Shown here in pieces: positions 16,196 through 63,296 of a stretch of 64,000 bases of DNA. The notes under the pieces were generated by a model. That model had not been told where the DNA came from. It ran no database searches and worked only from the letters and a program-made list of their open reading frames with translations. Each line of letters starts with the position of its first letter. The first letter of the stretch is position 1. Origin of the DNA: Solea solea (lineage: Eukaryota; Chordata; Actinopteri; Pleuronectiformes; Soleidae); the NCBI RefSeq assembly GCF_958295425.1, contig NC_081136.1:18909890-18973889 (forward strand), read 5' to 3'. A program made the translations under genes and the position numbers.

Positions 16196-16978
16196 GGCAG
16201 CCTATATCAAAGACAACGTTAAGAACGACGTCCATGGTATGTTTCATGTTATCTTGCATGATATAATTCAACACAAAGTTGCATCACTCTTACTGCGTAT
16301 GCAAACAAATTTGCATGTGTCTAAAACAACAACTCAGGAAATAATAAATGAGCTTTGTAGTATTAGCTCAGTTGTAGAAGAGTGCACACCAAAATAATTG
16401 AAAGTGTACTGATCAAGCATAATTGTACAGTAAACAGTGCAGTCACTGCTGCCATAACAGAAATAGTTAAAAAATTAAACCCCCTAAGTTTCTCGTCGAA
16501 AGACGGGCCTTTTACCTCTGAATACAAAAGAGCAACTTTTTACAAGAAAAACTTTAAAGTGATTGAGCCAATTGAATATGTTTTAGATGCATCTTGAAGA
16601 TGGAAATTTGTTTATATTCCAGTTTTTAAAGTCCTGACAGAGCTGTTAAATCGTATTGAAGTGTTAGATAAAGTCTTGGACACAGGACAGGACAGTACGG
16701 TCTATATTACAAAGACAATATTTTGCTCTCGTCAGAAGATCTTAGCAATGATGTGAAGTACTTGAGCAGCAAGGATTGTATGTTCAGAAATTGGGAACAA
16801 CTGTTAGAGGTACTGGGCTGTATGTGTCTGCAGACAACTTAGGGGCCCACTCACTTGCTGGGTTTCATGAGAGTTTTAATGTCGACAAATTTTGCCGGTT
16901 TTGTTTAGCTAGTCAGCAAGATATTGACATTCAAGAGGTAAAGGAGAGAGTATTTCCACTCTGGACAGTTGAATCTCA

Positions 16979-17396
16979 GAGACTGTCCTCCAATAAAACG
17001 TGCATATAGGTCGTATGCAGGAATTACGACCTATGTTTACGTTTTCAAAAAATGCGCCCCTAGCGGTTGTATACATAACAGCAACCACTTCCGCCTTAGA
17101 CGCCGTATCTATTGGCTTCGCCGATGTCAGCACCGGCAGTCGGCTCAGTAGCGAGAGCGCTGCGCCGGAACACGGTCGACAATGGTTCGGTCCCTAACTA
17201 TACCACCTTTTTAATTTTTTTTTTTTTTTTACTACCTAACCCTGTCTTTTTGCCCTAACCCTACCCTCAGTAACATCTGTGCATATTCGAGTTGGAAAAT
17301 ACTACCTTTACGTCGCATTCAGGGGTTTGAAAAAACGACCACAGTCACGTTTTCAGAAAACGACCTATATGTACGTTTCAGTTGGAGGACAGGTTG
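16979..17396 (+). mobile_element. 418-bp MITE with 8-bp TSD and tRNA-like core, copy 1
   Basis: Terminal inverted repeats are GAGACTGTCCTCCAA at the left and, on the other strand, AACCTGTCCTCCAA at the right. The 8-base duplication GAATCTCA flanks it (16971-16978 and 17397-17404). The interior contains GGCTCAGTAGCGAGAGC (about 17142) and GGTTCGGTCCC (17184), spaced like pol III A and B boxes, followed by a T-run (about 17213-17231). A second copy lies inverted at 41598-42869. TIR plus 8-bp TSD indicates a DNA transposon, possibly hAT-like; the tRNA-like core is unusual. Confidence 0.85.
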
Positions 17397-17701
17397 GAAT
17401 CTCACAAACAGGATCTTCTGGAATTAAACAGTAATCAGTTAGTTTCCGTGAATGGAGTAAAGAGTGACTGTGTTCTCGGATCTCAGATTACAGGTGCCTA
17501 TTAAAAGAGGTGTTTCCTGATTTCCACCTCCTGCCCAAGCACCACTTCTTGGAACATTATCCCGAACTGATTCGGAGATTTGGTCCCCTGGTTGATTTCT
17601 GGACCATTAGATTTTAAGCTAAGCACAGCTTCTTTAAAAGGGTGGTGCATGATTCTCACAATTTTAGAAACATCTTGCTCACTCTATCAACAAAACACCA
17701 G

Positions 17702-18297
17702 GGCCGTTTCTCAATATCCATACTTGTGCGTACTTGTGCGTACTTGCGTACTCCCAATTCTCAAGTAAGCGAACAATGAGGACGGTTCTCAATATTATAA
17801 TAATATACAAACAAAAAAGTTTGTATATTATTAATGGTTTTTTTATTTTAACTTTGAATGTTTGATTTATATTAAAGTGGCACGGTCATTGTATCTGTAT
17901 TTAAAAATAATATGTAAATATTAGATATGTAGAGTAGTATATATTTGTACAAGTCATATATATATATATACTACTCTACATTGCTGTAATATATCTATGT
18001 TCCACATTGTATTATTTGTACTGTATATAATCATAGAAATAAATTAGTAAATGAAGTTAAATATTTAAAATGTGAAAATAATAACAATATATATGCATTT
18101 ATTAAAAGTATTTTATATGTTCATTTATCAACACCGTAGGTGGCGGTAATGAGGCTGCAGCACACAATACATACATACTTGCATACTTGAGTACTGAGAA
18201 ACAACCACATACTTGTGTACTCCCGTACTTTTCAAGTATATACTCCCAGCGTATTTCTCAAGTATATACTTCCCAACTTGGGTATTGAGAAACGGCT
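17702..18297. mobile_element. 596-bp MITE with 3-bp TSD (PIF/Harbinger-like)
   Basis: The ends are GGCCGTTTCTCAATA and its near-complement TATTGAGAAACGGCT, flanked by CAG at 17699-17701 and 18298-18300. Deleting element plus one CAG rejoins LSTKHQ to LTLAYHLDLP in frame. Near each end are variants of TACTTGTGCGTACTTG. A 3-bp TSD suits PIF/Harbinger, but the family assignment is inferred. No transposase is present. Confidence 0.8.
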
Positions 18298-19384
18298 CAG
18301 CTTACTTTAGCTTACCACCTAGACTTGCCAAGTCTTTTCAGACCTGATCTGGAAGTTGGACACACTGCAGTTGTTTCACCTGATGCACTCGAGCACTCCA
18401 TGAGGCAGGCTGTAGAGCTGAAATATGGAAACATAAGTCTTGTGTCTCTTGCAACCCATGCCTGCCTTTATGGCATCAAGTATTCAGAGGGTATGTTTCT
18501 GTCTGTGGGGCACACCAGTGGCCTTCCTGACTTTGGGAAGCTGGTTGAAATTGTAGTTGTGTCCAGCAAAGTGTCTTTCATCATAGAACCATATCATGCA
18601 TGGTACATGGAGCACCTGCGGAGTTATGAGTTGATGAAAAAACAGTCTTCTGAACTGGTGATTGTGTAATTACACGAGCTAAATGGATATCAACCCCTGT
18701 ATCCATACACAAAAGCAGGCAAACTGATGGTGACACCAAAAGTTTTTTTTTCTTCATTAAGGTGTATTTGAGCTGTTATTTTACTTTAAATGGTGTGTTC
18801 CTCTCCTTCCTCTGAAAAACATATGCAGTATGTCCATAAATGTAAAAACAAGAATAAAGAATAAAATGTACATGAATGTTCATGTTTATTAATGTTTCTT
18901 TATTGTTCATTTTGTCTTTATTACATTATTTTTTTCTCCATCTCCAGAGAAGTCCTGAGAGTTTCTCAGTCACATGAAGATGCTGTTGGGTGTGATCATT
19001 TCACCACAGGACATCAGAAAGCTCCGCTTGGACCCAAGGCACTTGTTGAAAAACACCCTTGCCTTACAGAACCTGGCTCCCCATCTGGATGGTATGGATG
19101 GAAACACAGCATAAAGTTCAAGATGGGCAAATACAGACTGAAATTGAAAGGTGTGGGCTGCCGAGTACTGGAGGTTAATTCTGATTAAAGAGGTGCTGGG
19201 GACACGCGAGGGAAGAGAAACAAAGTAAAGAAACCTTGGATGATCTGAAACAAATTTTCTTCCAGATCTCCCACAGGGAAGAGACAGCAGAAGTCTTGAA
19301 GAAGCTAGAGAAAAGATGGTCCAGGAGATGATTAAAACAACCCCAAACCTGGCCTACATCGATGATGCAATGAACGCCGCATAT

Positions 19385-22088
19385 TCAATTATATTTATTT
19401 GTATAGCGGTCATCATCATCATCATCATCCTCCGCTTATCCGGGGCCGGGTCGCGGGGGCAGCAGTTTCAGCAAGGGACCCCAAACTTCCTTTTCCTGAG
19501 CCGCATTGACCAGCTCCGGCTGAGGGATCCCGAGGCGTTCTCAGGCCAGAGTGGAGATGTAATCTCGCCACCTTGTCCTAGGTCTACCCCGAGGCCTCCT
19601 CCCAGCCTGACGTGCCTGATACACCTCCCTTGGGAGGCGCCCAGGAGGCATCCTCACCAGATGCCTGAACCACCTCAACTGGCTCCTTTCAACGTGAAGG
19701 AGCAGCGGTTCTACTCAGAGCTCCCCCCGGATGACCGAGCTTCTCACCCTATCTCTAAGGGAAAAGCCAGCCACTCTCCTGAGGAATCCCATTTCGGCCG
19801 CTTGTACCCACGATCTCGTTCTTTCGGTCATGACCCAACCTTCATGACCATAGGGGAGGATAGGAACAAAGATTGACCGGTAGATCGAGAGCTTTGCCTT
19901 CCGGCCCATCTCCCGCTCCCTCGTCCCCTCACTCGTGAACAAGACCCCGAGATACTTGAACTCCTTCACCTGGGGCAAGGAGTCATTCCCTACCCGGAGA
20001 AGGCAATCCACCGGTTTCCTGCTAAGAGCCATGGCCTCAGACTTAGAGGTGCTGATCCTCATCCCGACCGCTTCACACTCGGCCACGAACCGATCCAGTG
20101 AGCGCTGAAGGTCGCAGGCCGACGAAGCCATGAGGACCACATCATCTGCAAAAAGCAGCGACGTGATCTCAAGCCCGCCAAACCACAACCCTCCTCCCCC
20201 ACGACTACGCCTCGATATCCTATCCATGAAAATCACAAACAGGATTGGTGATAAAGCACAGCCCTGGCGAAGGCCAACACCCACAGGAAACAGGCCTGAT
20301 TTAGTGCCGAGAACCCTGACACAGCTCATACTTTGGGCGTATAGGGATTGGATGGCCCTAAGTAGTGCCCCCCTCACCCCATACTCCCGCAGCACCTCCC
20401 ACAGTATCTCCCTGGGAACCCGATCATACGCCTTCTCCAGGTCCACAAAACACATGTAGACCTAATGGGCGTACTCCCAGGCCCCCTCCAGGATCCCTGC
20501 AAGAGTAAAGAGCTGGTCCGTTGTCCCACGACCAGGACGTAATCCGCATTGTTCCTCTTGAATCCGAGGTTCGACTACCGGTCGAACCCTCCTTTCCAGT
20601 ACCTTGGAGTAAACCTTACCAGGGAGGCTGAGAAGTGTGATGCCCCGGTAATTGACACACACTCTCAGGTTCCCCTTTTTGACAAGGGGGGCCACCACCC
20701 CAGTTTGCCACTCCTTCGGCACTGACCCCGACCTCCATGCAATGTTGAAGAGACGTGTCATCCAAGACAGCCCCTCCACACACAGAGCCTTCAGCATTTC
20801 TGGGCGGATCTCATCAACCCCTGGGGCCTTGCCACTGCGGAGTTGTTTAACCACCTCAGTGACCTCCCTCAGGGAGATTGACGATGATCCCCCATCAGCT
20901 TCCCTCTCTGCCTCCACCACAGAGGGTGCAGATGTCGGATTCAGGAGTTCTTCAAAGTGTTCCTTCCACCGTCCGGTTACCTCCTCAGTCAAGGTCAACA
21001 GTGTCCCATCCTTACTGTACACAGCTTGGATGGTCCCCCGCTTTCCCCTCCTGAGGCCCCGAATGGTTTTCCAGAAACACCTTGGTGCCGACCGATAGTC
21101 CTTCTCCATGTCCTCTCCGAACTTCTCCCATACCCGCTGCTTTGCGTCTGCCACAGCAGAGGCTGCCGCCCTTCGGGCCCGTCGATACCTTGCAACTGCC
21201 TCAGGAGTCCTCCGGGATAACATATCCCGGAAACACTCCTTCTTCAGTCGGACAGCTTCCCTGACCACCGGTGTCCACCACGATGTTCGAGGGTTACCAC
21301 CCCTTGAGGCACCTAAAGCCCTGGAGCCACAGCTCTCCACTACAGCTTTCACAATAGAGTCTTTGAACACTGCCCATTCAGGTTCAATGTCCCCAGCCTC
21401 CACAGGGATACAGGAAAAGCTCCACCGGAGGTGAGAGTTGAAGGCCTCTCGGACAAGGGCATCCTCCAGACGTTCCCAGTTCATCCACACTACACGTTTG
21501 GGTTTACCAGGTCTATCCAGAGTCCTCCCCCATCCTCTGACCCAACTCAACACCAGATGGTGATCAGTTGACAGCTCTGCCCCTCTCTTCACCCGAGTGT
21601 CCAGAACATGCGGCCTCAGATCAGATGAAACGATCACAAAATCGATCATCGACCTTCGGCCAAGGACACTCTGGTACCAAGTACACTTATGAGCATCCTT
21701 ATGCTCGAACATGGTGTTTGTTATGGATAGTCCATGACTTGCACAGAAATCCAACAACAAACGACCACTCTGATTTAGATCAGGTAGGCCGTTCTTCCCA
21801 ATCACGCCTCTCCAGGTTTCCCCATCGCTGCCCACGTGCGCTTTGAAATCTCCCAGCAGAACTATGGAGTCCCCCGACGGAGCCCCTTGCAGGACTCCAT
21901 CTAGGGCCTCCAAGAAGGCCGGATACTCCGAGCTGCTGTTCGGTGCATAAGCACAAACAGCAGTCAGGGCTTTCCCCCCCGCAACCCTAAGGCGCAGGGA
22001 GGCGACCCTCTCGTCCACCGGGGTAAACTCCAACACAGCGGCTTGTGAGTATTTTTTTGAGAAGGGGTTTAATAACTGCTATTTTAAA
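19385..22088 (-). mobile_element. L2-Rex3-L2 retroelement mosaic inserted in gene 2
   Basis: The inserted unit starts with an L2-type 3' end (TATTTATTTGTATAGCG, 19393-19409; compare 40850) and continues with a (CAT)n tail and a Rex3/RTE body to about 22048. It ends with about 37 bases of L2 RT sequence (GTTTAATAACTGCTATTTTA) that match 44117-44154. CATAT at 19380-19384 and 22089-22093 flanks the whole, and removing it restores MNAAYALRRHEI. The Rex3 therefore lies within L2 sequence that has lost about 3 kb, or the two RNAs were joined during reverse transcription. Confidence 0.75.
19715..22036 (-). pseudogene. Rex3: Rex3 (RTE-clade) endonuclease/reverse transcriptase, one internal stop
   Basis: The minus strand is open from 22036 to 19715 apart from a single TAG at about 20459-20461. 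The N-terminal endonuclease begins within domain ([37 protein letters not shown]). The RT has [23 protein letters not shown] sequence, [42 protein letters not shown] and the catalytic LLFADDVVLM (about 20140). The sequences GGTGATAAAGCACAGCCCTG (near 20249) and CACCACCCCAGTTTGCCA (near 20693) match, from memory, the two priming sites used in Rex3 surveys. The endonuclease start is missing (5' truncation near 22048), so the copy could not move by itself. Confidence 0.85.
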
Positions 22089-22189
22089 CATATGCACTGA
22101 GAAGACATGAGATCGTTGAAGAGGAGCCACCTGTGGCCAAACTGAGAGTCAGATGGCCTGCCCTTTTTACTGAAAGACAGGTAAAATGT

Positions 22190-23123
22190 GTACATTTTTT
22201 CTTAGTCATAGCAAAGTAGTAATTTTGTATTGTGTATATTGCAAGTCTCTATGCTAACATTCCTCCCATGGAGCACATGTGCTCGTAAAGTGAAATATTT
22301 GGGTGTAAAATTAAAAATTGTTTAAGTAAGACATTACAGTAAAAACACCCTCAGCAATTCACCTTATAGCTGTTATTTGATGACTTCTGACCCAGAATAT
22401 ACAAACATGGAAATATTTCATCTTTTTTAATGAACAGGCTCAAGCAATAACTTGCTCTTTATTATGACTAAACATTAAACATCTTTTTTAATCTTTCCTG
22501 TAGGCCACTATATTATGATATTAAATAATGCTTGAACTGATATGAATTACATATTTCTATTTAACAAAAATTTTGTTAACTTAAATTAAGGTGACTTTTA
22601 ACTTGAACTAAAACTGTAATGTTACTTCTCCACATAAATCGTCAAGGAATTCACCAGGCTCATGTCAATGGACAATAAGTTCTATTAGTGTCTGGACAGC
22701 CATCTGCATAAACTTATTCAGTTATTCCTGTTGAATCGCTTCGAGGAATTTCAAGAAATGACATCCTTAATGGAGAGTCTCGACAAGGATGTAAGTGCAT
22801 ATTTGTTGTAGTCCACATTAATTGTGCAACCCCACTGAGGAGAGGGACCAGGATGCAGAATATGAGAGACAGTAAACCTCCACTTATTAATGTGGTTGGA
22901 TAGGCACTTTGATACAGACTGAATGAATAAGAAAATTAAACAACATAGCTGGCTCTGTAAGATGGAGGAGATGGAGGAGATGGAGAGAAACTCTGGGTTT
23001 GTTGAATAAAACCTGCCAGTGAGGAGGTCAGAGTTTATGTTACCTCTCTTGAACTGAAAGCTCAGTTTCCGTCATTTGAGGGTTGACAAAAATTCTGATA
23101 TCAACTGAATTCACGTATCGTGT
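22190..23123. other. Intron-like sequence of gene 2 copy A
   Basis: AT-rich sequence between exon-like pieces of the SAMD3-like gene. Only the short coding patch around 22640-22800 (ending in a GATGTAAGTG donor-like sequence) is suggestive. Confidence 0.35.
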
Positions 23124-25250: not shown

Positions 25251-25261
25251 GAAAGCAGAGT

Positions 25262-36440: not shown

Positions 36441-36632
36441 CAACATTGCCGTCACCTGCTAGTGCCGTATATTGTCATTTTGCGAGAATTAATGTCCCAG
36501 GAGTTACTGGTCAAATTAATGCCGCCTGTTCTTTTTTATGCACTGTTATATCGTGATAACGACTTATTATCTCTTTATCTCAATATATCAAAGATCGTTT
36601 GCTCGTCGTAACGAATTAATAAATAATGTGTT

Positions 36633-41966: not shown

Positions 41967-42775
41967 CAGGGGTCGCGTTAACCGAATATTTTCCGTCATT
42001 GACTGTTTTTTTTAAAACGGTGACGGAAAAATCTGAGAGCCATCCGTCATTTTGACAGATTGCAATTCACACCCCTGACCACTTGGTGGTGAAGAGCATA
42101 TTACAGTAAGTTGAAAGTAGAAAAGAAGAAAAATGTCACGGCAGTTGAGTGTCAGAAGTTTCTTTAAAAAGCCCAAAAACTATGTTGATAAAAGAGGTGA
42201 AAAAAGAGGAATAGATGCAGATGCAGATGAAGGACAAACTCAGCCCTTGGCCTCAGCGGAGCGAGGAAGCGGCAGTAAGGAGGTTAGGCGAGTTCAGTGG
42301 GAGCGGGAGTTCTGGCTGAGGAGGGCGGATAGAAAAATGTTGTGCGACAAAATAAAGATTCCCATCGGAGAATCTGAGCATAATTTCTGACCTGGACACC
42401 GTACTCAATGCATCTCGCTATCCTTGTCGTGCTGACAGCGTGTTAAAGAGCTATGGACAGGAGGCTTTGGAGCGCGTCTGTGACCGGTGCAGCTGATCCA
42501 CTGGTGCAGAAGGAGCGCATGTTGCGGGATTTCCTACCACGCGCAACTACGCGCAAGCAGGCATGCGATTTAAGTCCATGTGGACCAGGAGGAAGGTGTG
42601 AGACTGTGCGTTTAGGCCACAGGTGAACTGTTCATATTCCACTGCAATATGAACAATGCAATTGAATATGTCATTATTATCATTTAAAGTGACCGGTAAA
42701 AATTGATTATGACGGGATTTTTATGACCCTGTCAGTCAAAATGACAGACAACGAAAAAGTCTAGCGCAACCTCTG
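41967..42775 (+). mobile_element. 809-bp hAT nested in the MITE
   Basis: The ends CAGGGGTCGCG and, inverted, CAGAGGTTGCGC are flanked by ATACAACC (41959-41966 and 42776-42783). Copy 1 of the host MITE gives the empty site, with a single ATACAACC on its minus strand. Only the first part of a transposase gene remains, so this is an internal deletion derivative. It is the youngest of three nested events here. Confidence 0.92.
42133..42390 (+). pseudogene. hAT transposase N-terminal remnant
   Basis: An 85-codon frame begins MSRQLSVRSFFKKPKN and ends shortly after KIKIPIGESEHNF. A start with SFFKKP is usual for hAT proteins of the KIAA1586/ZMYM type (recalled, not searched). After the stop another frame reads LDTVLNASRYPCRADSVL. 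The catalytic domain is missing. Confidence 0.55.
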
Positions 42776-42974
42776 ATACAACCGCTAGGGGCGCATGTTT
42801 TGAAAATGTAAACATAGGTCGTAATTCCTGCATACGACCTATATGTACGTTTTATTGGAGGACAGTCTCAGAGGAGCCTGGTAACTAAAGGCTCTGCCTC
42901 CCATTCTACTCTTACAGACTCTGGGAACCACAAGTAAACCTGTATTTTGTGACCTAAGTGGTCTATTAGGGTGA

Positions 42975-46079: not shown

Positions 46080-47603
46080 TCAAGGGTTTCACCATGAGCC
46101 TGAAAACATAAAGACAAAAACACACATCTTAACTGACTGACTTAAACATCACTGCTATTCTAATAGATAAAGGCTACAAATGTCTTTGAAATTAGTTAGT
46201 TAGTTAGTTATTAGTGAGTGTTGTCATTGCCTTTCTGCATGTTCATTGTTAAGCCCAAATAATAAAACAAACCAACAGTTATTTTTGCCACTAGGTGGAG
46301 CTACACTGAGAGAAATGTACTGCATTGAAATTTTCTCTATTTCTCAAAAATGTAGTATATTCTGATTTTAAGTACGAATAAGAATGTTATATACATTGCA
46401 TTTGAAATGAAATAATGATTATTATAGACTATGCATAAAACAGCTACATGAACATGGACAGAAACTTCGGGACACACCTCTTAACTAGCATGTAACACGT
46501 GGTAAATAATAATAAAAATAATCTAGGCTGTAGCTACTTTACTGATATATTGATATACTATGCTAAGCTATTTTAAAAAGTAGCCTAATGTGATAAGTTA
46601 GCATTGCATTATTTAAACAATATATATTATACAAACAATATAAGTCTGGATATTTTATTACATATTGGTTAAGATTACATTTTCAAGACACACAAAAAAC
46701 ACAAATATGATTGCAACATTAAGTGCATAGTTTGACTACCTAAAACAACAAAATACAGGATTTCTATGCTGTACTCGGTTGGCAAAGGATTACCTGTCTC
46801 TCACTAAACAATGCAGGCCATCTGTCCATGACTGCAGAAATGAGTGGCTCGTCCCCAATGATCTCTTGTCTTCGCTGGGAGAATGTTGCAGTCATCAATT
46901 CATCGAGGAGTTGCAAATCTGGCTCCCAAAGCATGGTCTCACGATCCTTCTCTGATTTAACAGTAGTTTGTCCATCAGGTGGCTCTGGTAAGTAGTGGAT
47001 CTCTCCTGAACCCGGCTCCCTGAGACAAGGGTGCTTTGCAACAAGAGCTTTGGCTACGCCTTCTAAATTGTCTTTACTTAGATAGCAAGTGATTTTGGTT
47101 ATGCTATCAGCCAGTCTGTCCAGTATTTCACTCTTCACACTCTTTGAGATGACCATCATGGCTCCATCCTTGGCATAGGCATTATTTGCTACCCTCAGCT
47201 GAAACTTAACGTCATGGGAGAAATCTGGAATAACAAAGGGATCAGGCCATTCTGAAGAATCACCACTACTAGGGGGATCAGGGCTTGCACTATTCTGGGA
47301 TCTAAGGCTTGCAGTATCTAATGTCGAGTCAGAAACTGGTTCAGAAAACGTGAACAGAACTTTTAGTGTGGCTCGTTCAGTTGGACGGTCCTTGATGTCT
47401 GTCAAATTGCAGAGCTCATTCCCAAAGTCTGGATCTTTAAACTGTAAAAGGAACTTCCCATGAAGGCCCAGAGTGTTGCGCAGTACTACACATAGCTCAT
47501 CAACTAAAGGGGGAACATTCTGTAGGGTGACACGTCTTATTTCCTGAGGTGAGACGATGACTTTCGCCAAGAACTGAAACACAGTGAACAAAAACGAAAA
47601 CAC
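46080..47603 (-). pseudogene. Gene 2 (SAMD3-like) of the two-gene element, copy B
   Basis: After a TGTGTTTCAG splice acceptor (about 47580) the exon reads LAKVIVSPQEIRRVTLQNVP and LCVVLRNTLGLHGKFLLQF, then DPDFGNELCNLTDIKDRPTE. A serine-rich stretch, WPDPFVIPDFSHDVKFQLRV, VKSEILDRLADSITKI and ALVAKHPCLREPGSGEIHYL follow. It ends MDRWPALFSERQ at a GTAATC donor (about 46790). That donor lies at the same codon as in copy A. A GWYGWKHSIKF-type segment present in copy A is missing here. A likely downstream exon is AHGETLDVIMRGMQVRLLIG (about 46105). The family is common in fish and usually auto-named SAMD3-like. The role is unknown. Confidence 0.7.
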
Positions 47604-47903
47604 TTAATTAAACAGTATGAATCTTAAAGAAGCTGTAAATGGAGGTAAAACAGCAGAGAGATTACAACAGATAGGGAGAGTGAATTCAGAGATCAGGTAG
47701 CCATTTCTACACTACATCTTTATAAAGCAAATAATTGTTTGTTGATACATTTTGGGGCTGAGTGTCATAACCTTTAAAGTGCAGTTTATATCATGTTATG
47801 TGGTCCAAAGATAAAGAGTTTGTTTAAATTTATGACAAACCACCCCAATCAAATATTACCTTAATGTGACATGAATGTCCTTGGAGTGACGATCAGCTTT
47901 TCT

Positions 47904-49330
47904 TCAAGGGTATGCAGCAAGAGGAATGTAGTCATTCAGACGGTCGGGATCAATGACCACAATTGTTACAGGATCCCTTCTGGCGAGCTGGTAACTAGTG
48001 AGATGCTCCTGGAAGGTCACTGTGAATAGTTCCATAATGAATGATATATAACCATCCACTACACAGATCTCCAATACTCTCCCAAAATCTGGCAGTCCAC
48101 ACGTCTGTCCAACTGAGAGTACCATGCCTTTAGAATATTTTGTCCGATTCAAGTAAACAATGGAGGTGAGTGAAACAGAGTCCAGACCTTCCAGACCTTG
48201 TAGGTAGCACAGGGATTCTGTTGTGAATGAGGAGCTTGATAACACCTCCTCCAACAGTGGAAGAAATCTCAGAAGTGCCAAGTTCTCGTGTCCGTTGCCA
48301 CCAATTGTTCCTTTTTTTGAAAAGTTTGTTTGTATTGTCTGAGGCCTGTTAGTTTTGTCAGAAAACTGAAAAGGAAATGATGCTATTCTATCATTAAGGT
48401 CATTCAATGTGAAATACTTTTTAGCAATAAGATCTGAAAGACATATGCATAGTTCCACAGGTACAATTCCCTCCACTACATCGGGCAGAATTTCAGGTGG
48501 AAAACCTTTTGCAGGATGAAAGTGGGCAAGTCTGCTTAAAGGACAGTCTCTCTTCAAACCATGAACACATGAGGCATTAGTTGTGTTAAGAACATTAACG
48601 GCTTCATCAAACCATTCTGGTGTTCTCAAAGTAAATGCCCCGCTTCTGACATCATGATGCTGAATATCTTTAAGATTAGATAAAGTTAAATTTCTCCACG
48701 TTTAAAGACTCTTTTACATTACATTACATAACATGTCATTTAGCAGACACTTTTATCCAAAGCGACTTACAATGGGTATGAGTACAATCAGCCAGTACAA
48801 TCAGTACAATTGCGACTATGATGTCACTGAGCCACTCCACCCCTCCCTTGTTGGATACTCTTGGTATCCAGCAAGGGAGTGTGCACCTAAGTTGTCTGCC
48901 GACACATACAAAACAGTACCTTTGACACAAGACCCAAGTGTATTTACAAATACACCAGTCATCTCTAAATGCTGAAGGTCTCTAATCAGAGGCTCCAAAA
49001 CTTTGCTGTAAGTCTTACGGGTAAGTTAGCTATCACCCAATATATACCACACAACTTATGTTTCTTTTTTTGTAGTTCCCAATGGATTACAGATTTCAAA
49101 ATCATCAATGTATAAGCCAAGAGCTATGCCTAATACTTCAGCAAAAAGTTTGTTTTCTTTGACGTATTCACCATCTTGAAATGAGCAGTGAAATGAGTTC
49201 AGTTTGGGTTTGAAATGTGTTCAAACTGTCTTGATAAATACAGACAAGGCCTGAACACCTCCGGTGATGTCCATGATGCTCTTCATAATGCTGTATTATT
49301 TTTCCTTGGCCACTGGAGGAGAAGGCACAA
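47904..49330 (-). pseudogene. Gene 1 (Tnp2-like transposase) of the two-gene element, copy B
   Basis: Segments in order: ENKLFAEVLGIALGLYIDDF leading into EICNPLG (49165-49080), GIYWVIANLPVRL (about 49050) and a deletion. EPLIRDLQHLEMTGVFVNTL and VLYVSADNLGAHSLAGYQE (48998-48845) follow, then a fish repeat inserted at 48715-48845. FTLRTPEWFDEAVNVLNTTN, LPDVVEGIVPVELCICLSDL and KKGTIGGNGHENLALLRFLP come next, ending with MVLSVGQTCGLPDFGRVLEI. An internal deletion has removed the PKHHF...RFExKH part that copies A and C show, so the putative catalytic glutamate is lost. The stop is at about 47904. Gene 2 follows about 300 bases downstream on the same strand. Confidence 0.7.
48715..48845. repeat. 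Fish dispersed repeat (TTACA run plus TAGCAGACxC motif)
   Basis: It contains a TTACATTACATTACATAACA run (48715 on), followed by TAGCAGACACTTTTATCCAA. This is the same arrangement as at 1097-1150, with one G-to-A change in the motif. It interrupts the gene 1 frame of copy B after HSLAGYQE. Confidence 0.75.
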
Positions 49331-49339
49331 AACTTACAT

Positions 49340-50236
49340 TTCCACATGAACTAGACGTGCTTGAATTCTGTGAACAGAAAAATGTAAAATTAAATTAACA
49401 TAACATTTATTTAAGCAAGCAAGTGGTTAAGAACAGTTATCTATTAACTATATTAAAAAAAAAACAAAAAAAACAACAACTATAAACCAATATTCCACAT
49501 GTTATTTTCAGTTATTTGGATTACGTTTAGCTAACACTTATGCAGTATTATTAACAACCCTGCAAGAATAACCTTTATGGTGGTTAAAATATTCAAGTAG
49601 TGTTGCTGTTAATTTTGAAGACTGTAAATTGTGATGTTGAATATTACATTATAAACTGAATATAAAACAAAAACACAAATCAATATCATCCAATTCATCA
49701 GTAGTGCCAACAACTAGCTAACATGAGTTAAGTAGGCTCTAAACCCCTGTTGATAATGATTAGTTAAGCATTTAATGTCCTATCCTTCCTTTCCTACCTC
49801 TCTGACTCAACATTAAAATAAATATATTTTACAATCTGCTCTACCCTTGTACCATGACAGATCCTCTCCTCTGTCATCAGCCTGCTCCTCTGTCAACCAA
49901 AGTAATAATTCAACTGTTCTCAGAAACTTAACGTTAGTAAAAACTATATTTATATCTATAAATGACGTTCATTTTCAGTTAATTCATCAAATTGCAAGCT
50001 TTATCTGTTTGTGTAAAACATATGGGAGGGGCAGCGGGTTGACAGGGGAGGGTGTGGTCCGGACCTTTTTAACAGGTGTTTGAAAAGGTCCTCGTACCTC
50101 TCTGGAGGAGTTTGTCTATTTTAAAATAATTCAGTCTATTACAGGAGCCATAGGTGCCGATTTATATTTTTGCCCGTGGGTGCCCAAATTATATAAATAC
50201 CATCATATAAAGATCATGTCATTTTGACTCTTTAGG
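49340..50236. other. No gene; upstream flank of copy B
   Basis: AT-rich sequence with an A-rich run at about 49455-49482. It should contain the 5' end of copy B, but no CACT-type terminus was recognised. Confidence 0.4.
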
Positions 50237-50390
50237 CAGTGGTGGACTGGGACAAAAATTCAGGCCGTGAATTTGATGCCATTCCAGGCCACCCTTCTCA
50301 TGCAGACCACCATACCTCTAGTTGTGTATTCTAACCCTATTTGATAGTTAAAAGAAATTAGTGTAATTATTTGGCTCAATGGTCACCACA

Positions 50391-50433
<43 letters not shown>

Positions 50434-50735
50434 TTCTCTGTGTATACATATATATTCATTGATTGATTTTATATTATTAATGATTGCACACACAACCCAG
50501 AAAGACAGGTGTCTGTGAACACAGCCTGTAAAGTTTATAGTTGTACTATATAGAGCTTGTATATATTATAATGATAGTCAAACTATCATTTATGGTGCAG
50601 AATTACAATAAAGAAAACTGCCACAAAGCTACAGCCTAATAGATTAAGAGTAAACAAAAAAGCTACCTGTATTTAATTATGATTTATTATTTCAGCGTGC
50701 ATAAACTATTCTGTAGTGGCTCAAACATGCAACAA
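50237..50735. mobile_element. hAT-like MITE, partial; contains (CA)n
   Basis: It begins CAGTGGTGGACTGGGAC and matches the first part and interior of the complete element at 57348-58399, including ACCACCATACCTCTAGTTGT and TAGAGCTTGTATATATTATA. A (CA)n microsatellite (about 50393-50428) lies inside it but not in the other copy. Similarity stops near 50735, so the right end is missing or diverged. Confidence 0.75.
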
Positions 50736-50739
50736 AATC

Positions 50740-52895
50740 ATACACGTTCACCACTTGTCACTTCGGTCGTGTTGCTCCGCCTCAGTTTGCAGGCTGTTGT
50801 CAGGTCTCTTTCCGCATGTCGAAGTAGTCCTTGATCATTTACTACAAAGTGTCTGTATTTCGATTGGAACTCGATATATCTGCAGTGTTTAAATTATTCT
50901 GTTCATGCTTCAGCCTTGCCATGAATTAAAGAAGACAATTAAACTCAAAAGTCCTCACAAATATTAATTTTGTAGCTCCCATTGGCCCATTCCCGCTTTT
51001 TCCCCAGCGCCCCGCCCCCCCATCAGATAACTTTGAAACGCAAGTTCAATCAACACATATTGATCTGATAAAAGTTTCAAATAGTCAACACAATTAATAA
51101 CAGTAAATTTTACTTTTTAAAACTCACGCAGATGAGTTCAAAATCCAAAACTTCAGAGCTCTTTGTGTTAAAGAGAGGAAGTAAGTGGACTTAACTAAAT
51201 GGGGCTGTCCTGTTTGACAGTGCAGGCGCTCACAGTGGAGGTCACAAATCACATGACACAGGAGCCAAAAACCTTCCTCAAAATGCAGAAGAAGGGTTAC
51301 AAAGACTCCTGCGCTGACTTTTCTGTTCCATAATGGTCAAACCTCAATGTCATTGAGGAAAAAGAACTACAGAAAAACTTCCCTATCTGTCAGATGTTGC
51401 ACACAGTGGTGGGTGATGTACAAATACAACGATCATCATACAATTTATATTCCAGATAAATGAAGAAGTAATATAAAAATCCCTAAATCAGCATGAAACA
51501 TATGATGCAGGGAATGGAAAATGCATACACAAAAATCATACTAATCACACATAAACGCATTATTGCAAAATGTCTTTCACATAATCATATTCACTTCAAC
51601 TCATGCACTGTCCGTGCAGTGGAGAGTCGCCAACCATGGAGAGGTTACTAGCACATACGATGCATGGTGGCACGGAATCCATCGGTGGAGCTTCTCTTTT
51701 CTGTCTCATGATGTGAGACATTACTATTTATTACTATTTTTTTTTATTGATCATTTGCACAAGTAGAACTATAAGGCGGCAAGGCAAGGCATTACATTGG
51801 AAATTAAAACAAAATCAATTAAAAAATAAATGACAGAAATTAAAACAATTTAAAATATTAAACAACTTAAAATCAAGCAGACACAAATGCCTTCATCTGT
51901 CCTGTGTTTGCCCTCCCTTATTTGTCCCTGATGTGAAAATGAAATAAGTCACAGGGCTTATACTCCAACTCAGCTCGAGTCTCCAAGACACGAGCTGGTC
52001 CCCTGAGACTCATTTCATCTAATCAGTCCCTCATTTTTATAACTCAGAGAAACACTGAACAGATAAAGCACCTGTCAACTGAAAATTAATAAAACATTGG
52101 AATGTAAGGTTATTGGTACATTTTCTGAAATTAATAGCAAACTACTGACCAGCAACACACCTTTCACTTTTATTGGCATTGTTTTGTTTTGGTTTCAGTT
52201 TAGTGAATAGATCCTACAAGGAAGAGGATCTGATTAAAATTTTAAATTCTCAGTCCAAGTCAAAATTTAAAATAAATATTTCATGTTTCCATCTCTATAA
52301 TATCACTATGTTAACACTCTTTGTCAAACTGAACTGATTATAACATATCTTCAAGAAATTCACTTTAATTGTGCTAAATGCTCGTCTGCTTCTCTGGATA
52401 TTAAAACATGAAAACAAAAAAATACTTTCCTTGGATTGATCTGATTAAAATACAAGCTCTTGAAAAAAATAAACCTGAAATATCTAAGTATGCTTTTAAT
52501 ATTCTTATTCTTATTATTTATTTAATTATTTATGTTCTTCTTTTCATGGCTGGTCTGAGATTAGTTAATTGAAAAGTGGTATAAGGACAGTTGGTATTAA
52601 GTGCTTTCACATTGTCATACAATTCACAAGTATTGTAATAAATTATGATAAATCATTTTTTGGCACAGATATACAGTACTATCTTTAAAAAATAAAGCAA
52701 TGACTTTTCTTATTAAATCTCCAACAACAAAATAATAATAATTTAGTTTGGTTTGTTTTCTTCTTGAAATAAAAACTAAATAGATCAACATACATTCCTC
52801 AAAATCAATAACTGAATATAACCAAACTTAAAATGTTAAAAACAAAACAAAAATAGTTCAACAATAACAATATACTTTTTAAAAAAGAAGAAGAA
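50740..52895. other. Long AT-rich interval without recognised genes
   Basis: No coding family was recognised. The 67-codon frame at 51563-51766 is unremarkable. The part next to 52900 may be the 3' untranslated region of the LINE remnant there. A short inverted pair CAGCTCG/CGAGCTG sits at 51970-51997. Confidence 0.4.
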
Positions 52896-53327: not shown

Positions 53328-53376
<49 letters not shown>

Positions 53377-53590: not shown

Positions 53591-53599
53591 GTGGTAAAA

Positions 53600-56410: not shown

Positions 56411-59400
56411 TTACTGTACATCACGCCACTCGTGATCTGAAAGATCTTGAATCAATGAGATGACTTGGGGGTTCACATGAAGATGGGATCTTTTTGTCTT
56501 CTCTACTTTAGTGCCCTTCTCAGGGTTAATGGAGAAAAAACACCTGCATTAATAACAAAATATCTTTACATTAACAAAAATCTTCACAATGATAACTTTT
56601 TATTCAAGCTATTACTTTAAAGTTAGCAGCTACTTCTAAATAAAGTGAAAATGTAAGATAAACCTAATCAAAACCAAAAAGACACACCTCGGCAGAAACT
56701 CCAGGGTTGATGCCAGGCATGATGGGTAATGCATGTTAAAGCAATAGTAACTCCCAAACATCAGGCGTAGGGCAGAAACTAAGGAGGGGATGTTGTCCTG
56801 AACAATGTTTCGATCCACACTCAACATGAAGCGATTTGCAGAATAACAGGATCATCGTGAAAAAATGTAAACACAAGGAAGGGGAACATAATTCAAACTA
56901 TAAGAGGTTACTGTATCAAGAAACATTGTGCAAGATAAATCTGTGCCAAAATAGAAAAGAGAGAAAGGAAAGGAAAGGAATAAAGAAATACAGAATGAGA
57001 GAGAGAATGAAAGAAATCGTTCCAATCCAATCGTTGGAGTCAAGGGAAGTTAGTCCCATCTGTACTTCCCCTGCCAGGCATGTGTCCTTGACAACGAACA
57101 TGGCGTCTTCCTTTTCATCAAAGTAGGACAGCAGAAGCAACACCATGTATTTGAGGTCTTCAGAACAACCACTCAGCTCTCACATCATGACTTGATACTT
57201 TGTTACAGCCTGTAGGAGCTTTCTGCTCTTGTGCATACAAACTGTATTCAAATAGCTCAGTAGCTTTTCCTTCAGCTCCAGATTACGTGTGAAAACTTCT
57301 TTCAGCCCAAGTCTGGTTAGTGAGTACTGAAAGTGGACTGCCATACCCAGTGGTGGACTGGGACAATAATTTAATTTGGTGTCATTCCAGGCCACCCTTC
57401 TCATGCAGACCACCATACCTCTAGTTGTGTATTCTAACCCTATTTGATAGTTAAAAGAAATTTAGGAGTGACCAATAAGTTATCTATTTGAATATATGAT
57501 TTTCATTGAAAACCCTGTTTTCAAATGTTATAGCAATGGGTGAATCCTCAAAAACCATGAGGACAGCAGCCATAGGATACACAAATGTACAAGGCAAGAC
57601 AAACAAAACAATGGGCCTATATTTTTAAAAAGAGAGAGTCGTACTATATAGAGCTTGTATATATTATAATGATAGTCAAACTATCATTTATGGTGCAGAA
57701 TTACAATAAAGAAAACTGCCACAAAGCTACAGCGTAATAGATTAAGAGTAAACAAAAAAGCTAGCTGTATTTAATTATGATTTATTATTTCAGCATGTAT
57801 AAACTATCCTGTAGTGGCTCAAACATTATGCAACAAAATCATATTTTTCATTCATCTCTAGGTATTCTGGATTGATTGTCGGGCCGTGTGCCTGTGTGTA
57901 TGTGTGTGTGGAGGGGGCTGGGGCGGCGCATGTGACTTCCACTATTGTTGCTTAAGATGTGATGGAATTAACCCTCTGTGAGACACACAGTCTGCGGTGG
58001 TGACGGTGATTGAACGATAAACGGAATGAAAGCTATAGCGTTTTTGATTGACCTTCCCTCCTGGTGAACATGTCACTTATTTTGCAACATTTCGCTGCGT
58101 CTGTGGCAAGGGCTTTCTGTTTTCTGTCCCTCTCTGTCTCTGCTCCACCTTTCCTTTTCTTCTGTCCCTCCATTTCTCTCGACTACTAGAGTGAAGACAG
58201 CGGAGCTAATTGATTGTTGTGTGATGCCGACTGTTCGCCGAGCGGCGTCATTACGTAACTAGATGGATTGATTTGATTGGCCTGGGCGTCCAGTAAGTCC
58301 AGTCAGTCCACTCAGTCCGGTGACTGTTCAAGTCAGGCCACGATGACCATCAGGCCACCGGGAAGCGTCCCGGTGCTCCCGATGGCCAGTCCGCCACTGG
58401 CCAAACCAAGCTCATGAAACAGAAATGTACACTCATCAAGGAGGTTCTTGATATTTTTCCCCGTTTGTTAATGCAAGAACTTTTTTGTATCATCTCAGAG
58501 ACCACGATTCGGACCATCTCCCGCCTCATTCGTGGATTTGGTCGTTTCCCTCTCTCAAGCGACTGTAAAAGTTCCTCTGGGAACACGGTATCAAAAAAGT
58601 ATCCACCCAGCCCTAAGCCAATTAGGGCATTGGCAGTTCGTGGAAGAGGTTGAGGATGAACTTCTGGGTGAAGACTCCAAGGATATGGGAGGTCCTTCTG
58701 AAGCCAAAGCAGATGAGCTGTTCGTTTCATGAGTTGGGCCTGAAAACACACACACCAGCCAATTAGAAAAAAACAAAAACAAAACATGTTAACGATAAAA
58801 CTTCTCTAGGAAGATACAACTTTGAAATATACACTTTTTTAATCAAATGCAATGAAATTAAACACATATGCAATTTTAACTTTTTTTTTCTTTTTTTACA
58901 TTTTTAGCCCCTTGAACTTGAGATTTTACCAAACAATGAAAAATATGTATTTTAACCCTTTTAACCTTCTTCTACCAAATTCTATTTAGCCATATATTTA
59001 TCATCAATCTATGTACTATATTGTACCTGCATAATTGTACCTGGACTATAGAGAGAAAAGTTGAATTGCTTTTTCTTGATTTCTAATTTTCTAGATTTTC
59101 TAATTTCTAGAGTGCAATAATGAGGACATCTTGTTGTTATCAGGGCCCAAATGTGAATGCTACCACATTCCTGATTAATATTTTGTGCAGGTTACTTTGG
59201 GCACTGGTTGCATTCTGTACAGCAAAACTTGACTTACATCGTAGCTTCCAAGCAGCAAGTATTTTTTGGTCTTGAATGGGCCTTAACACTGTCATCAAAT
59301 TGGCTTCCTCAATGAACTTAAAGTCATCAGATGTCTCAACCCCGAGGGATTGTAAATGCTCTTCTAGAATGTCTTTATTGATTTCTGAAAGGTCAGGCAG

Positions 59401-59439
59401 GACCTCAGTTATAGCGCTGCGTAGAAATGTTTGCTCCAT
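56411..59439 (-). pseudogene. Gene 2 (SAM-domain, SAMD3-like) of the two-gene element, copy C
   Basis: The first exon (59439) reads AITEVLPDLSEINKDILEEH then LGVETSDDFKFIEEANL, a SAM-like helical domain. The next exon (58760-58408) has FPEELLQSLERGKRPNPRMR and REMVRIVVSEMIQKSS, and is interrupted by a MITE (57348-58399). Coding resumes as MAVHFQYSLTRLGLKEVFTR, KSRKLLQAVTKYQVMM, a TGA stop, then ELSGCSEDLKYMVLLLLSYF and FVVKDTCLAGEVQ. A later exon has MLSVDRNIVQDNIPSLVSAL and RLMFGSYYCFNMHYP (56827-56710). The last reads FSINPEKGTKVEKTKRSHLH and VISLIQDLSDHEWRDVQ, with TAA at 56411-56413. This is the most complete gene 2 here. Family function is unknown. Confidence 0.75.
57348..58399. mobile_element. 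1,052-bp hAT-like nonautonomous element
   Basis: The ends are CAGTGGTGGACTGG and, inverted, CAGTGGCGGACTGG. The flanks are GCCATACC (57340-57347) and GCCAAACC (58400-58407), an 8-bp TSD with one mismatch. It splits gene 2 of copy C. The interior shares several hundred bases with 50237-50735, but the right part (57870-58390) is found only here. No transposase frame is present. Confidence 0.85.
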
Positions 59440-60006
59440 GTCAGGCCTTTCTAGAATAAGAAAGAATGATATCAGTTTTCAAAATGCAAGAAATGTACAA
59501 TTAGTCAAGTATCAATGTACATACAAATAATAATACATACAAATAATTTAAGTATGACTGGGTAAGGAACTATCACGTTTCTTTTAGTACATGTGCATTT
59601 TAGTATGATTTCTCCACCAGTGACTAGGATCATGTTATTTCGCCAACACACTGTTCGAACTTGAGTATATTATATTATATTATATATTATTGAGGATTTA
59701 CACTTTTTAATGGTTGCTCCTAGTTACACATTTTTTTTACACTTTCATATAAAAGGGAAACTGCTGTCACTGTTATATTTTTCAAATAACATTTTATCTT
59801 GTTAAGAATATGTGCATTACTGTACAGTAACCCTAACTCTCCAGCACAGTGGTCAAGACCATGTTTATTTTGATAACACACTGTGTTTCAGCAGAACAGT
59901 GTGATGGTGTCCATCAACAATGTATGATGGTAACGGATAAAAATCTATCAAGTCATCCAGGCTTTATGTATATCCACCACAAAATACACAGCTGCATCAT
60001 TTTGAA
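59440..60006. other. Spacer between gene 1 and gene 2 of copy C
   Basis: AT-rich sequence with TATAT repeats near 59666-59688. Both flanking genes read on the minus strand. No coding seen. Confidence 0.5.
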
Positions 60007-62405
60007 CTAAAATAAAAGTTCTCCAAACTCGATGGTCTCATCATTTTTTGACACAAGGAAATGTCCCTTTTTATATGATGTACCTTTGTACTGAATGTCT
60101 GTGGAGACACTAGTATTGTGTTCTGAAAAGCCAAACGCTCTCACTGCATGTTTAATTGCATCAATGTAAAGGCTGGGATAAAAAGTGTACAACTATCTTT
60201 AACTTGCAGAAGCTGACTGCAGCCTGGCCCAGCTGAAAGATACAGTGTGCCTGAAATATTTGATATCTCTCGGATAAAGTTAGGCATATGTTTAAATGCC
60301 TGGCACATCTCTTGAAGTAGCTGTGTTTACTTTCGAAACGCATGGTCCATACTCTAATCAAGGGGCCGAATTTCAAAATTAGTGCCGGATAATGATGCAT
60401 GAAATGGTGTTTGGGTTTTAGTGTAGTCTCAGGGTTAGGGTTAGGGTTATAAACACTTTCTTGATTCCAAATATTCTTGGATTGTAATGTCAAGATAGGC
60501 TACTTGGGAAAATGAAATCTTTTGTGCACAAATCATATGAACAATATCTTTAAGCTGCAGAGTTAACTGCCACACATCATCTTCTGGATTTTGGACTTTG
60601 TCTCCAATTAACACAGGCAGCAACATTAATAAATTCCAGTTCTGGATAGCTTGACCTGAAAGCTTGGACCCCTCAGAGCTGACAGCAGTTGGCTTTATGA
60701 GAGCATCAGATCCCTTTGTACTTCTTGTACAAACTGCTTGATGTGTCGGTTCAACACTGAATATGTAAACCATTTCTTTTTCTTGATTAAATACTTCAAG
60801 TACAGTGCAACGTCATAAGATAAGACACCCTCAAATATGTCGTGGCCTAAACAAGGTGGGAGACCAGGCTGGCAAACATGAAAAGACTTGAGAGTATTGA
60901 AAACAGAGTTTACCTTTATGCCTCTACTGCCTTGCCTGTCTTCAGCTTGTAGAACTGCAGAATCATAACTGTCAGGCTTGCGCTGTGGACCACAAACATT
61001 TGGATTATTTGATCAAACTCGGTTCTTGTGATTTCACAATATCTGCAAAAGTACACAGAATGGCTAAAGCTTTCAGTGAACCCACCAATGCTATGTGACC
61101 CCAAATTATCTCCTGCAATACAATACAGAGCCCCTTTGACTGTTTCATCACCAACAGTTATCTCAAGATTTTGAAAATCCTCTAGCATCTCTGAGATAAC
61201 TTTAGCACTTCCAAACTGTTCTAGGTCATTCTCTCGCCACAATAAGATAAGGGACATGTGATCTGTATTGGACCACACATGTGCAGGCAAATTTGCCACA
61301 GAAAGATAGACAGCAAGAAATTTGTGTTTTTTCTTAGCTGAGCCTAGGGGATTCACAATTTCAAAGGCATCCTGGTATGGTAGAGTATTAGCTTCTGACA
61401 TCCTGGATTTTCAATGAAAAACTGGTTGGACTTAAAGTTTTGACCATCACTTATGTCACAAAAGTTATCTGGGTGTTTCACAAGACTGTTGTGAAACACA
61501 CCACACACATTCCATATATCTGATTCTAGTAAACTGTTTAAAGTTTGTGTTACAGGTACGCAAACCTTTCTGTCATATTTTCATCATTTCCTAATTTTAC
61601 TTTTTTAGGCTCTATGTATTTGAACATTTTATGGAAAGTCTGAGCCCTCGAGTATGTTGTTCTCAGCGGCTCCTGATGACAGGCAGAGAACAGGTCTGAA
61701 TCCTTCACACAATCACAGATTTTAGCAATAGCATCATCAGTTAGACATATGTAATTTTTTAAAAGTGAACGCAGTTTACTTAAAGTGTAATCCTGTCCCA
61801 AATCATGCACATTTTGCATCTCTTCAACGATTGTCTGTATTGTTGAAGCTGGAGGAAGGAGCTGCCCTTGCAATTTTAGGTAGAATAAACAGACATTCCT
61901 AAGAAAAGTCTCATTGAAATCCTGTGGCAATTCACTGCTTTCATTTGTTGTAGCATCATTGGAGCTCTGGGGAACATCTTCACATGCACTGACAGCAGAA
62001 GGCTGAGAAACATTTTCCCTGTACTTGTCACTTATACTATCCACTGAACACGCTCTGTATTTTCGTGACATATGAGCAGTAAATGATGATTTAACAGTGA
62101 ATGAATTTTCACAACTTGTTACTGGACATGCCACAGGTCGCCCCTCTGCTATATGTTTTTAGGTGGGAAATAAGCTCTTTGACTGTGTGAAATTGGCACT
62201 CACACAGCGAAATAGCACACTTAAAATCAGCAGTAACAGAGGGTGCAGGTGCGTTGTGAACTCGATAGAAATTACCTTTGAAAGTGGTATAGGTACAAAA
62301 AGTCCACTTGCACTCGGTGCTAACACATTTGAAAAATGGATGGGGTTCGTGCTGCATTTTACGTAACCCCTCAAGGTTTATAATGTTTTGCTGCAGAAAT
62401 TGCAA
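60007..62405 (-). pseudogene. Gene 1 (Tnp2-like transposase with C2H2 fingers) of the two-gene element, copy C
   Basis: The N-terminus has three C2H2-like units: CVSTECKWTFCTYTTFKGNF...H, CAISLCECQFHTVKELISHL, and CPVTSCENSFTVKSSFTAHM (62330-62050, one frame break). LFYLKLQGQLLPPAS and YSRAQTFHKMFKYIEPKKVK follow (61900-61600). The core is YQDAFEIVNPLGSAKKKHKF (61380), LYCIAGDNLGSHSIGGFTES (about 61110) and YFCRYCEITRTEFDQ. After a frame change come LLPVLIGDKVQNPEDDVWQL (about 60620), LKPKHHFMHHYPALILKFGP (60425), and VWTMRFESKHSYFKRCARHL. The end is GHFLVSKNDETIEFGEL (60070-60007). The Asp, Asp and Glu in the three core blocks could form a DDE triad as in CACTA Tnp2 proteins; this is inference. 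Breaks near 61540, 60900 and 60460 make it inactive. Confidence 0.72.
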
Positions 62406-62613
62406 GTTAACATTTTTGCCAAAACCACCACTTCACAACAGCATGAAACGAGCGTGAATTCAATGTAAAGTAGTTAACTGTGACCAAGTAATTACATGTA
62501 AAACCACCCCTTTACAACACATTATAGTAACATTACCATACACGCCAAATTTCAGGTCCCACATGGCAAAAAAGAAAAGCGATCTGCAAAACTGATATTA
62601 CTACGACTGACAA

Positions 62614-62655
62614 ATCTGTTGTTCAGGTAAGAATCAGCTTACCTGAACAACAGAT
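62614..62655. repeat. Perfect 18-bp inverted repeat with 6-base loop
   Basis: ATCTGTTGTTCAGGTAAG (62614-62631) is followed after AATCAG by its exact complement (62638-62655). Because it is palindromic, both strands carry CAGGTAAG, an ideal splice donor. It lies about 210 bases upstream of the first gene 1 coding block of copy C. Confidence 0.95.
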
Positions 62656-62659
62656 GCTT

Positions 62660-63282
62660 TCACAGACTGGGCGTGCAGTCAGCAGTCTTCAGCCATTAGC
62701 TCAGTGGTCGTCACGGTAACAGCTACGTACTGCTCAGTGAGTGGACGAGGAATGAGCACAGCTAGTATGAAATTCAAACACAGCTGTTTGTTTCGCGGGA
62801 AAAACGCGCCTGTTGTGCCTGTTGTCAGTCATACATCTTTGTCGTGAATGTCTGTACTCTCAAACAACTTGTGGGTGGAACAGTCTGAGGCATTTGTTCA
62901 CGCCGAACGGCTCAAGAGCAGTGTGGAGACCGCTGTTGGCTTGTTAGTGGTTAGCTGTTAGCGGTTAGCTGAGTGGGCTTGCTGGTAGCGAACAACATCA
63001 GCACCGCTAGTAAGGCAGACGTGGTAGACCTGAATCGAACACACTCCTGTAACCAATCATGCTGTTGACATGTGTAACGAATAAGTAAAATGTAATATGG
63101 TTTCTTTTGGCATAAACAAAATGTACCAGAGAGCCTACTGACAAAAAATGTTATTCTAACATTCCTATGATGTAATTTTAACTGTATCACATTTTTTTTT
63201 TGTATTCACACAGCTTCATTGTTTTTGTATTTACAGTTTTTTATGTCATGATTTTACAGGAATTCACTGTTAATTCTACAGA
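62660..63282. other. Upstream flank of copy C gene 1
   Basis: This is probably the 5' region of the element. It contains repeated GTTAGCGGTTAGC-like words near 62944-62972 and a TTTTACAG-rich segment from 63230. No coding family was recognised. Confidence 0.35.
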
Positions 63283-63296
63283 CATTTTTTACAGTG
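63283..63296 (-). repeat. Candidate CACTA-type terminus of copy C
   Basis: Read on the minus strand the sequence begins CACTGTAAAAAATG, followed by repeats of ACAGT and TGTAAA. I recall CACTGTAAAAA as a usual terminus of fish EnSpm/CACTA elements. It lies about 0.9 kb upstream of gene 1 on the correct side. The matching far end was not found, so this is tentative. Confidence 0.45.

Follow-up and report, generated by a model that had tools for sequence, protein, structure and literature searches.

The window analysed here, a 64,000-nucleotide stretch of the 642-Mb Solea solea assembly (C3:18909890-18973889), contains three decayed copies (A, B and C) of one pair of genes: gene 1, which by its motifs encodes a CACTA-type transposase, and gene 2, a putative spliced accessory gene. 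A reading made from the sequence alone had proposed that gene 2 follows gene 1 on the same strand in all three copies and that the copies are degraded. Both points were confirmed by tblastn with intact relatives from the same genome, which was used to map the copies, and every copy proved to be broken or interrupted by other elements (Table 1). A comparison of open reading frames (ORFs) within the window links the gene 1 pieces of A, B and C and the gene 2 pieces of A and B only, in the same order and on the same strand, so that copies A and B match in both genes without the use of any relative. Their gene 2 alignment scores 111, against a maximum of 49 in 200 shuffles. The best E values per query for copy B range from 2e-48 to 1e-74 for gene 1 (three queries) and are 7e-24 and 3e-109 for gene 2 (two queries). 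Direct comparison of the copy C gene 2 with gene 2 of A and B gave no significant match: the real score was equalled or exceeded by 4, 8, 21, 48 and 91 of 200 shuffles in five comparisons, and the comparison with the lowest of these counts aligned a short Gly-rich stretch. The kinship was shown instead through L084, an intact C-type gene 2 with an ORF of 449 amino acids (aa), whose N-terminus differs from that of the A/B type and which beyond it aligns with the A/B-type profile with an hhalign probability of 96.9 (E 1.4e-10; one comparison, with the Ser-rich linker included). Mapped on the window, L084 covers the copy C gene 2 in three blocks. By sequence, A and B share one type of gene 2, and C carries a second type with a different N-terminus.

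The borders of the pair were found in intact copies elsewhere in the genome. Genome counts throughout are lower bounds; gene 2 of copy B has at least 111 matches and gene 1 at least 107, and some sets of matches carry equal scores and are therefore probably recent copies. Three families, F1, F2 and F3, are represented by near-identical copies of 7.9-8.8 kb at separate sites. The F3 copies on C24 and C29 are 99.83% identical over 8737 aligned bases and have different flanks; their similarity ends at identical two points, and the element reads CACTGTAA...TTACAGTG, with TA on both sides in both copies. The F1 and F2 pairs are 97.6-100% identical by aligned block, with internal insertions and deletions between copies. 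The elements end in CACTG or CACTC, with perfect terminal inverted repeats (TIRs) of 18, 11 and 8 bp in F1, F2 and F3, respectively, and eight of the nine copies with both ends read show a matching 2-bp target-site duplication (TA in six, CT in one, CA in one). Among five further copies examined for their borders, F3_C32 has CT/CT, F1_C29 CA/CA and F1_C27 TA/TA; the CT and CA cases show that the two flanking bases are a duplication and not element sequence. Within these borders lies the gene 1 ORF (900, 888 and 920 aa in F1, F2 and F3), followed 84-478 bp downstream on the same strand by gene 2 exon 1 (ORFs of 357, 358 and 343 aa). Gene 1 spans 888-920 aa in five of the six copies read whole and is shortened to 608 aa in the remaining one, F1_C3. 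Several gene 1 and gene 2 matches are also bunched at C3:20.105-20.125 Mb, an apparent landing cluster. The inverted repeats and duplications around intact copies that the sequence-only reading had suggested looking for are present in F1-F3, and near-identical elements with exact ends and 2-bp duplications at separate sites show that both genes moved as units, and recently. On this evidence it is almost certain that gene 1 and gene 2 form a two-gene DNA transposon, as had been claimed.

The same arrangement recurs across the genome. Matches to either gene that lay on one strand no more than 3 kb apart were treated as one cluster, with the copy B gene 2 query defining the gene 2 clusters. Of 66 such gene 2 clusters, 37 follow a same-strand gene 1 that lies upstream within 10 kb; gene 1 is downstream of one and on the opposite strand at another, and 27 have none. 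The order suspected from the window therefore holds in 37 of the 39 adjacent cases, and it exceeds chance, as 1000 shuffles of the gene 1 places gave a mean of 0.11 and a maximum of 2 such cases. At a shorter range, a gene 1 match lies no more than 1.5 kb upstream of 23 of 29 distinct gene 2 loci (copy B included; L022 was dropped from these as the same place as L013). The C-type N-terminus, taken from copy C, has eight matches in the genome. In six of these, one being copy C itself, a same-strand gene 1 immediately precedes the match; those at C2:15.94 and C33:6.23 Mb lack it. Counted from gene 1, 36 of the 72 clusters are paired by the copy B gene 2 query, five more by the C-type query and 31 by neither. 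Copy A of the window itself belongs to these 31, its gene 2 remnants being below threshold.

Gene 1 appears to encode the catalytic transposase, in which N-terminal C2H2 zinc fingers precede a D-D-E core that includes the C(2)C and H(3)H motifs. In an alignment of nine long proteins and the copy B piece, read by eye, all nine long proteins retain D, D, E and HH[F/Y]xEH, together with the motifs DD[F/L]E..NP[L/I]G and RFE.KH and the D of (A/S)D(N/Y)L.AH; the C(2)C pair (CRFC) is present in eight of them, L059 having SRFC. To judge by these motifs, from which the catalytic residues were assigned, gene 1 conforms to the signature by which CACTA-type transposases are recognised (D, D, E, C(2)C, H(3)H). 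This pattern is given for EnSpm, Mirage, Chapaev, Transib and Plavaka in PMC12730594; C(2)C and H(3-4)H, as expected of CACTA/EnSpm in the CMCT clade, stand between the second D and the E. The Pfam model Transposase_21 matches three of ten gene 1 proteins weakly (best E 0.016). In a profile search of PDB the N-terminal fingers match zinc fingers (best E 9e-5), and among the best 60 of 70 matches the significant ones are zinc fingers, two other kinds being weak (E 0.31 and 1.6).

Gene 2 is best described, from its sequence, as a putative spliced accessory gene whose product begins PB1-like and continues through a Ser-rich linker and a conserved middle domain to a C-terminal domain encoded by the last exon. 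F1, F2 and F3 match one another in exon 2 and in the last exon, and the F3 introns are GT...AG by eye. The middle domain has the consensus KS.IL..LA..YP......ALI.KHPCL.EPGS..G.YGWK, and no Pfam model matched it. Pfam PB1 matches seven of 11 A/B-type proteins weakly (best E 2.6e-4), two matches scored in detail fall below the curated cut-off, and the C type has no Pfam PB1 match; no Pfam Myb/SANT match was found among the 11 A/B-type members. Two apparent relatives in PDB were rejected, since in neither case does any stretch pass alone: a WD40 sequence match of copy B gene 2 over 30-40 aa, which the gene 2 profile did not reproduce, and an engineered cytochrome trimer, the best match of the gene 2 profile (three repeats scoring 7.7 bits each, with a summed E of 3.5e-4). 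A search of viral contigs found no relatives, and three prokaryote-contig matches to a DNA pattern were attributed to chance by translation and tblastn. The proteins of the window copies, compared with Pfam, PDB and viral contigs, gave nothing decisive.

Both genes seem to have been kept together for a long time. Between families the proportion of synonymous differences (pS) is 0.72-0.87, which is near saturation, and that of nonsynonymous differences (pN) is 0.24-0.47 in both genes, a codon pattern from which we infer long purifying selection. The protein distances of gene 1 and gene 2 correlate (Mantel test, r 0.71, 5 of 5040 permutations) across the seven elements used. Each family contributed one copy for which both a long gene 1 and an ORF of gene 2 exon 1 were available; F6 and two loci with just one of the genes known were excluded. 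The pN/pS values and the distance correlation suggest that gene 2 has probably long been retained, and retained with its own gene 1.

Taken as a whole, these observations are explained by a single cut-and-paste DNA transposon of CACTA/EnSpm-like (CMCT) kind with a TNPA-like gene 2, a reading to which we assign a probability of roughly 0.8. The gene 1 product would cut and join, and the gene 2 product would bind and pair the element ends, as TNPA does in maize En/Spm, and so enable cutting by gene 1; it may also regulate the element promoter, and its PB1-like end could serve self-contact or contact with the transposase. The TNPA-like role itself, which is drawn by analogy, stands at about even odds. 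The Solea elements pair an animal CACTA-type transposase with a conserved partner, and their near-identical natural copies would allow the long-standing question of the second protein's function in this superfamily to be addressed in vertebrate cells.

Several observations weigh against the two-gene, TNPA-like transposon. Near-identical copies, which do not represent independent events, contribute to the genome counts. F1_C3 has the borders AT/AG and no matching duplication, and within the sequence retrieved the 5' end alone was seen in F2_C32 and no end in F2b_C24. The synonymous rate dS is saturated and not computable for most pairs, and two close gene 2 pairs gave dN/dS values of 0.28 and, on very few changes, 1.08. 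Structure models of gene 2 pieces are of low confidence and too poor for a structure search. The pairing is also incomplete on both sides. The 27 gene 2 clusters without gene 1 within 10 kb have been noted; among them is one set of three, the L041 set (C24:7.06, C3:21.21 and C29:6.71 Mb), which has very similar scores and an open gene 2 frame of 360 aa, and whose members are maybe elements with gene 2 only. These solitary clusters and the three-copy set are what would be cited in favour of gene 2 being a host SAMD3-like family that lies beside transposase relics by chance or is carried passively. Such a view is, however, contradicted for F1, F2 and F3, where the same TIR and duplication borders enclose both genes, and it agrees poorly with the near-uniform order and strand of adjacent cases, with the matching distances of the two genes and with copies about 97-99.9% identical at separate sites. 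We consider it very improbable.

On the gene 1 side, 36 of 72 clusters are left unpaired by the copy B gene 2 query, and eight of the 31 paired by neither query have ORFs of 809-821 aa (Table 1), which may represent gene-1-only elements or elements with a third kind of gene 2. Were the eight a gene-1-only lineage, the pair would be a derived state of one branch. The failure of both gene 2 queries to match near these loci speaks for such a lineage; yet a third, diverged gene 2 could have been missed, because the C-type gene 2 also failed to match copy B gene 2 directly, and we lean against the gene-1-only explanation while taking it seriously. The long gene 1 ORFs without a detected partner are equally relevant to the main rival, in which gene 2 is a passenger, dispensable for transposition and engaged in escape from silencing or some other host-facing task, as may be the case for the TET/JBP genes of fungi. 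Genes of the TET/JBP type are indeed known in other, fungal transposons, but according to PMC12730594 they move between transposon lineages, whereas gene 2 shares its history with gene 1 in the seven elements tested and follows gene 1 on its strand whether the element is of A/B or of C type. A passenger role is accordingly a possible but not a favoured account of gene 2, and the TNPA-like transposon is retained as the working explanation.

The sequence-only reading had further taken gene 2 for a SAM-domain accessory, and this part was not supported. No SAM model matched gene 2 in Pfam searches: SAM is absent from the families listed for 11 A/B-type members, and the C type gave no Pfam SAM match. 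The N-terminus of the copy C gene 2 was modelled with low confidence (pLDDT 48) as four helices that are SAM-like by appearance, none of its eight genome matches is among 72 SAM_2 matches, and only one of those 72 has a gene 2 cluster less than 20 kb away; the C type may still harbour a diverged SAM fold. Six SAM_2 matches form a tandem array at C35:15.83-15.93 Mb; four lie in open frames of 1535-1584 aa, which we take to be SAMD9-like, and a gene 2 cluster lies nearby at C35:15.94 Mb.

We presume that fish genes annotated as 'SAMD3-like' resemble gene 2 in its middle and C-terminal regions. The proposal that such genes are the second gene of a transposon finds partial support in this genome: gene 2, in which a SAM domain was not detected, is multi-copy and mobile and lies beside gene 1 in 37 of 66 clusters, but 27 clusters have no gene 1 within 10 kb. 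If the presumed likeness is real, fish genes annotated as host relatives of SAMD3 would, at least in this genome, in large measure be gene 2 of a recently active transposon, and studies of gene families or expression that count them as the host's would be misled. More tentatively, at somewhat less than even odds, vertebrate SAMD3 and the many fish genes called 'SAMD3-like' could be descended from the dedicated second protein of a vertebrate CACTA-like lineage, or be its source, which would make them a case of a transposase partner turned host gene. Among the matches listed in a search of open-access titles and abstract openings, no link between SAMD3-like genes and a transposon was seen; Repbase lay outside that search, and an entry with the pair may exist there.

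The decay of the window copies is of several kinds. Copy A has a stop codon in place of the conserved E of RF(E)AKH, and its gene 2 matches flank the inserted ORFs of long interspersed nuclear element (LINE) type on both sides. A longer version of the small TIR element within its gene 1 lies at 41601-42865. The zinc-finger-like stretch of copy C is the probable N-terminus of its gene 1. A search for terminal repeats flanking the window copies gave only AT-rich noise among the 25 longest pairs listed per region. The repeat at 50237-50742 and 57348-57843, which begins CAGTGGTGGACTGGGACA and is 90-96% identical in aligned parts, was at one point considered a fourth element fragment; it was reread as an unrelated dispersed repeat because the L084 C-type gene 2 is continuous across the 57.35-57.84 kb stretch. 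Upstream of copy A, a Spin-doc zinc finger stretch at 15969-16180 (PF18658, E 1.7e-8), presumably of hAT type, shares one open frame with the N-terminus of copy A gene 1. A transposase-like relic on the minus strand at 34893-36474, which we also take to be hAT-like, has a zinc finger resembling the Spin-doc stretch near 16.0 kb (26% over 69 aa, E 1.9e-8).

Table 1. Features of the three window copies (window coordinates) and, in the last row, long unpaired gene 1 ORFs elsewhere in the genome.
Feature	Position	Strand	Basis or remark
Copy A gene 1, CACTA-type transposase by motif, broken, split by small TIR element	16266..18747	+	tblastn, intact relatives
Short element with ~32-bp inverted ends, inside copy A gene 1	16983..17392		self-blastn
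Copy A gene 2, first part, from KHPCL..EPGS..GWYGWK region on	19036..19387	+	tblastn and A/B comparison
LINE-type reverse-transcriptase ORFs within copy A gene 2, approximate borders	19715..22078	-	ORFs named by appearance
Copy A gene 2, exon 1 end (RWPALFTERQV)	22076..22186	+	tblastn and A/B comparison
Copy A gene 2, exon 2 remnant, weak	22638..22727	+	E 0.003
Copy B gene 2 exon 1, open frame, GWYGWK stretch deleted	46782..47603	-	61% identity to L013
Copy B gene 1, broken (frameshifts, deletion, LINE tail)	47847..49347	-	tblastn
UnaL2 LINE 3' tail within copy B gene 1	48730..48783	-	Rfam RF00436, 59.3 bits
Copy C gene 2 last-exon remnant, weak	56681..56845	-	E 0.001
Copy C gene 2, later part	57057..57350	-	64% identity to L084 gene 2
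Dispersed repeat interrupting gene 2 of copy C	57348..57843	+	second copy at 50237-50742
Copy C gene 2, middle part	58449..58583	-	73% identity to L084 gene 2
N-terminus of copy C gene 2, four helices of SAM-like appearance, Pfam without confirmation	59233..59460	-	68% identity to L084 C-type gene 2
Copy C gene 1, conserved E intact (WTMRFESKH)	60191..62158	-	tblastn
Copy C zinc-finger-like stretch upstream of gene 1 matches	62112..62432	-	position and Cys/His pattern only
Unpaired long gene 1 ORFs	C31:13.33, C33:7.87, C36:23.63, C36:23.44, C36:22.59, C26:14.68, C27:26.76, C26:2.33 Mb		

The Solea elements resemble several known transposon lineages in part. PIF/Harbinger elements combine a transposase with a Myb/SANT protein and are thus alike in having a separate accessory gene, but their transposase is of another class and gene 2 gave no Pfam Myb/SANT match. 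The Pfam model of Plavaka matches just two of ten Solea gene 1 proteins, and weakly. SmTRC1 and the other animal TRC elements likewise have an animal CACTA-related transposase and more than one element-encoded protein; PMC1636069 reports 2-bp direct repeats in seven of 14 copies and a similar sequence in Danio rerio. TRC termini, however, begin with CCC, unlike the CACTG or CACTC of the Solea elements, and SmTRC1 makes its second proteins through alternative splicing, with no detectable relatives in other TRC elements, whereas gene 2 is separate and conserved. ESTA, in the accessible text of PMC12730594, duplicates TA, which holds for only six of the eight Solea duplications (CT in F3_C32, CA in F1_C29). 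The CMCT lineages are described there as having CA..TG ends in most cases and duplications of 2-5 bp (PMC12730594). The Solea elements have CACT... inverted-repeat termini, a 2-bp duplication that falls within this range and the D/D/E motif set. Maize En/Spm expresses TNPA and TNPD from one spliced transcription unit and makes 3-bp duplications, in contrast to the separate gene 2 and the 2-bp duplications seen here. Its transposition requires two element-encoded proteins, the tnpA and tnpD products, as stated in the text available from PMC1636069. With En/Spm the Solea elements have in common CACTA-type ends, a Tnp2-type transposase by its motifs and two element proteins, gene 2 being a putative counterpart of TNPA in role.

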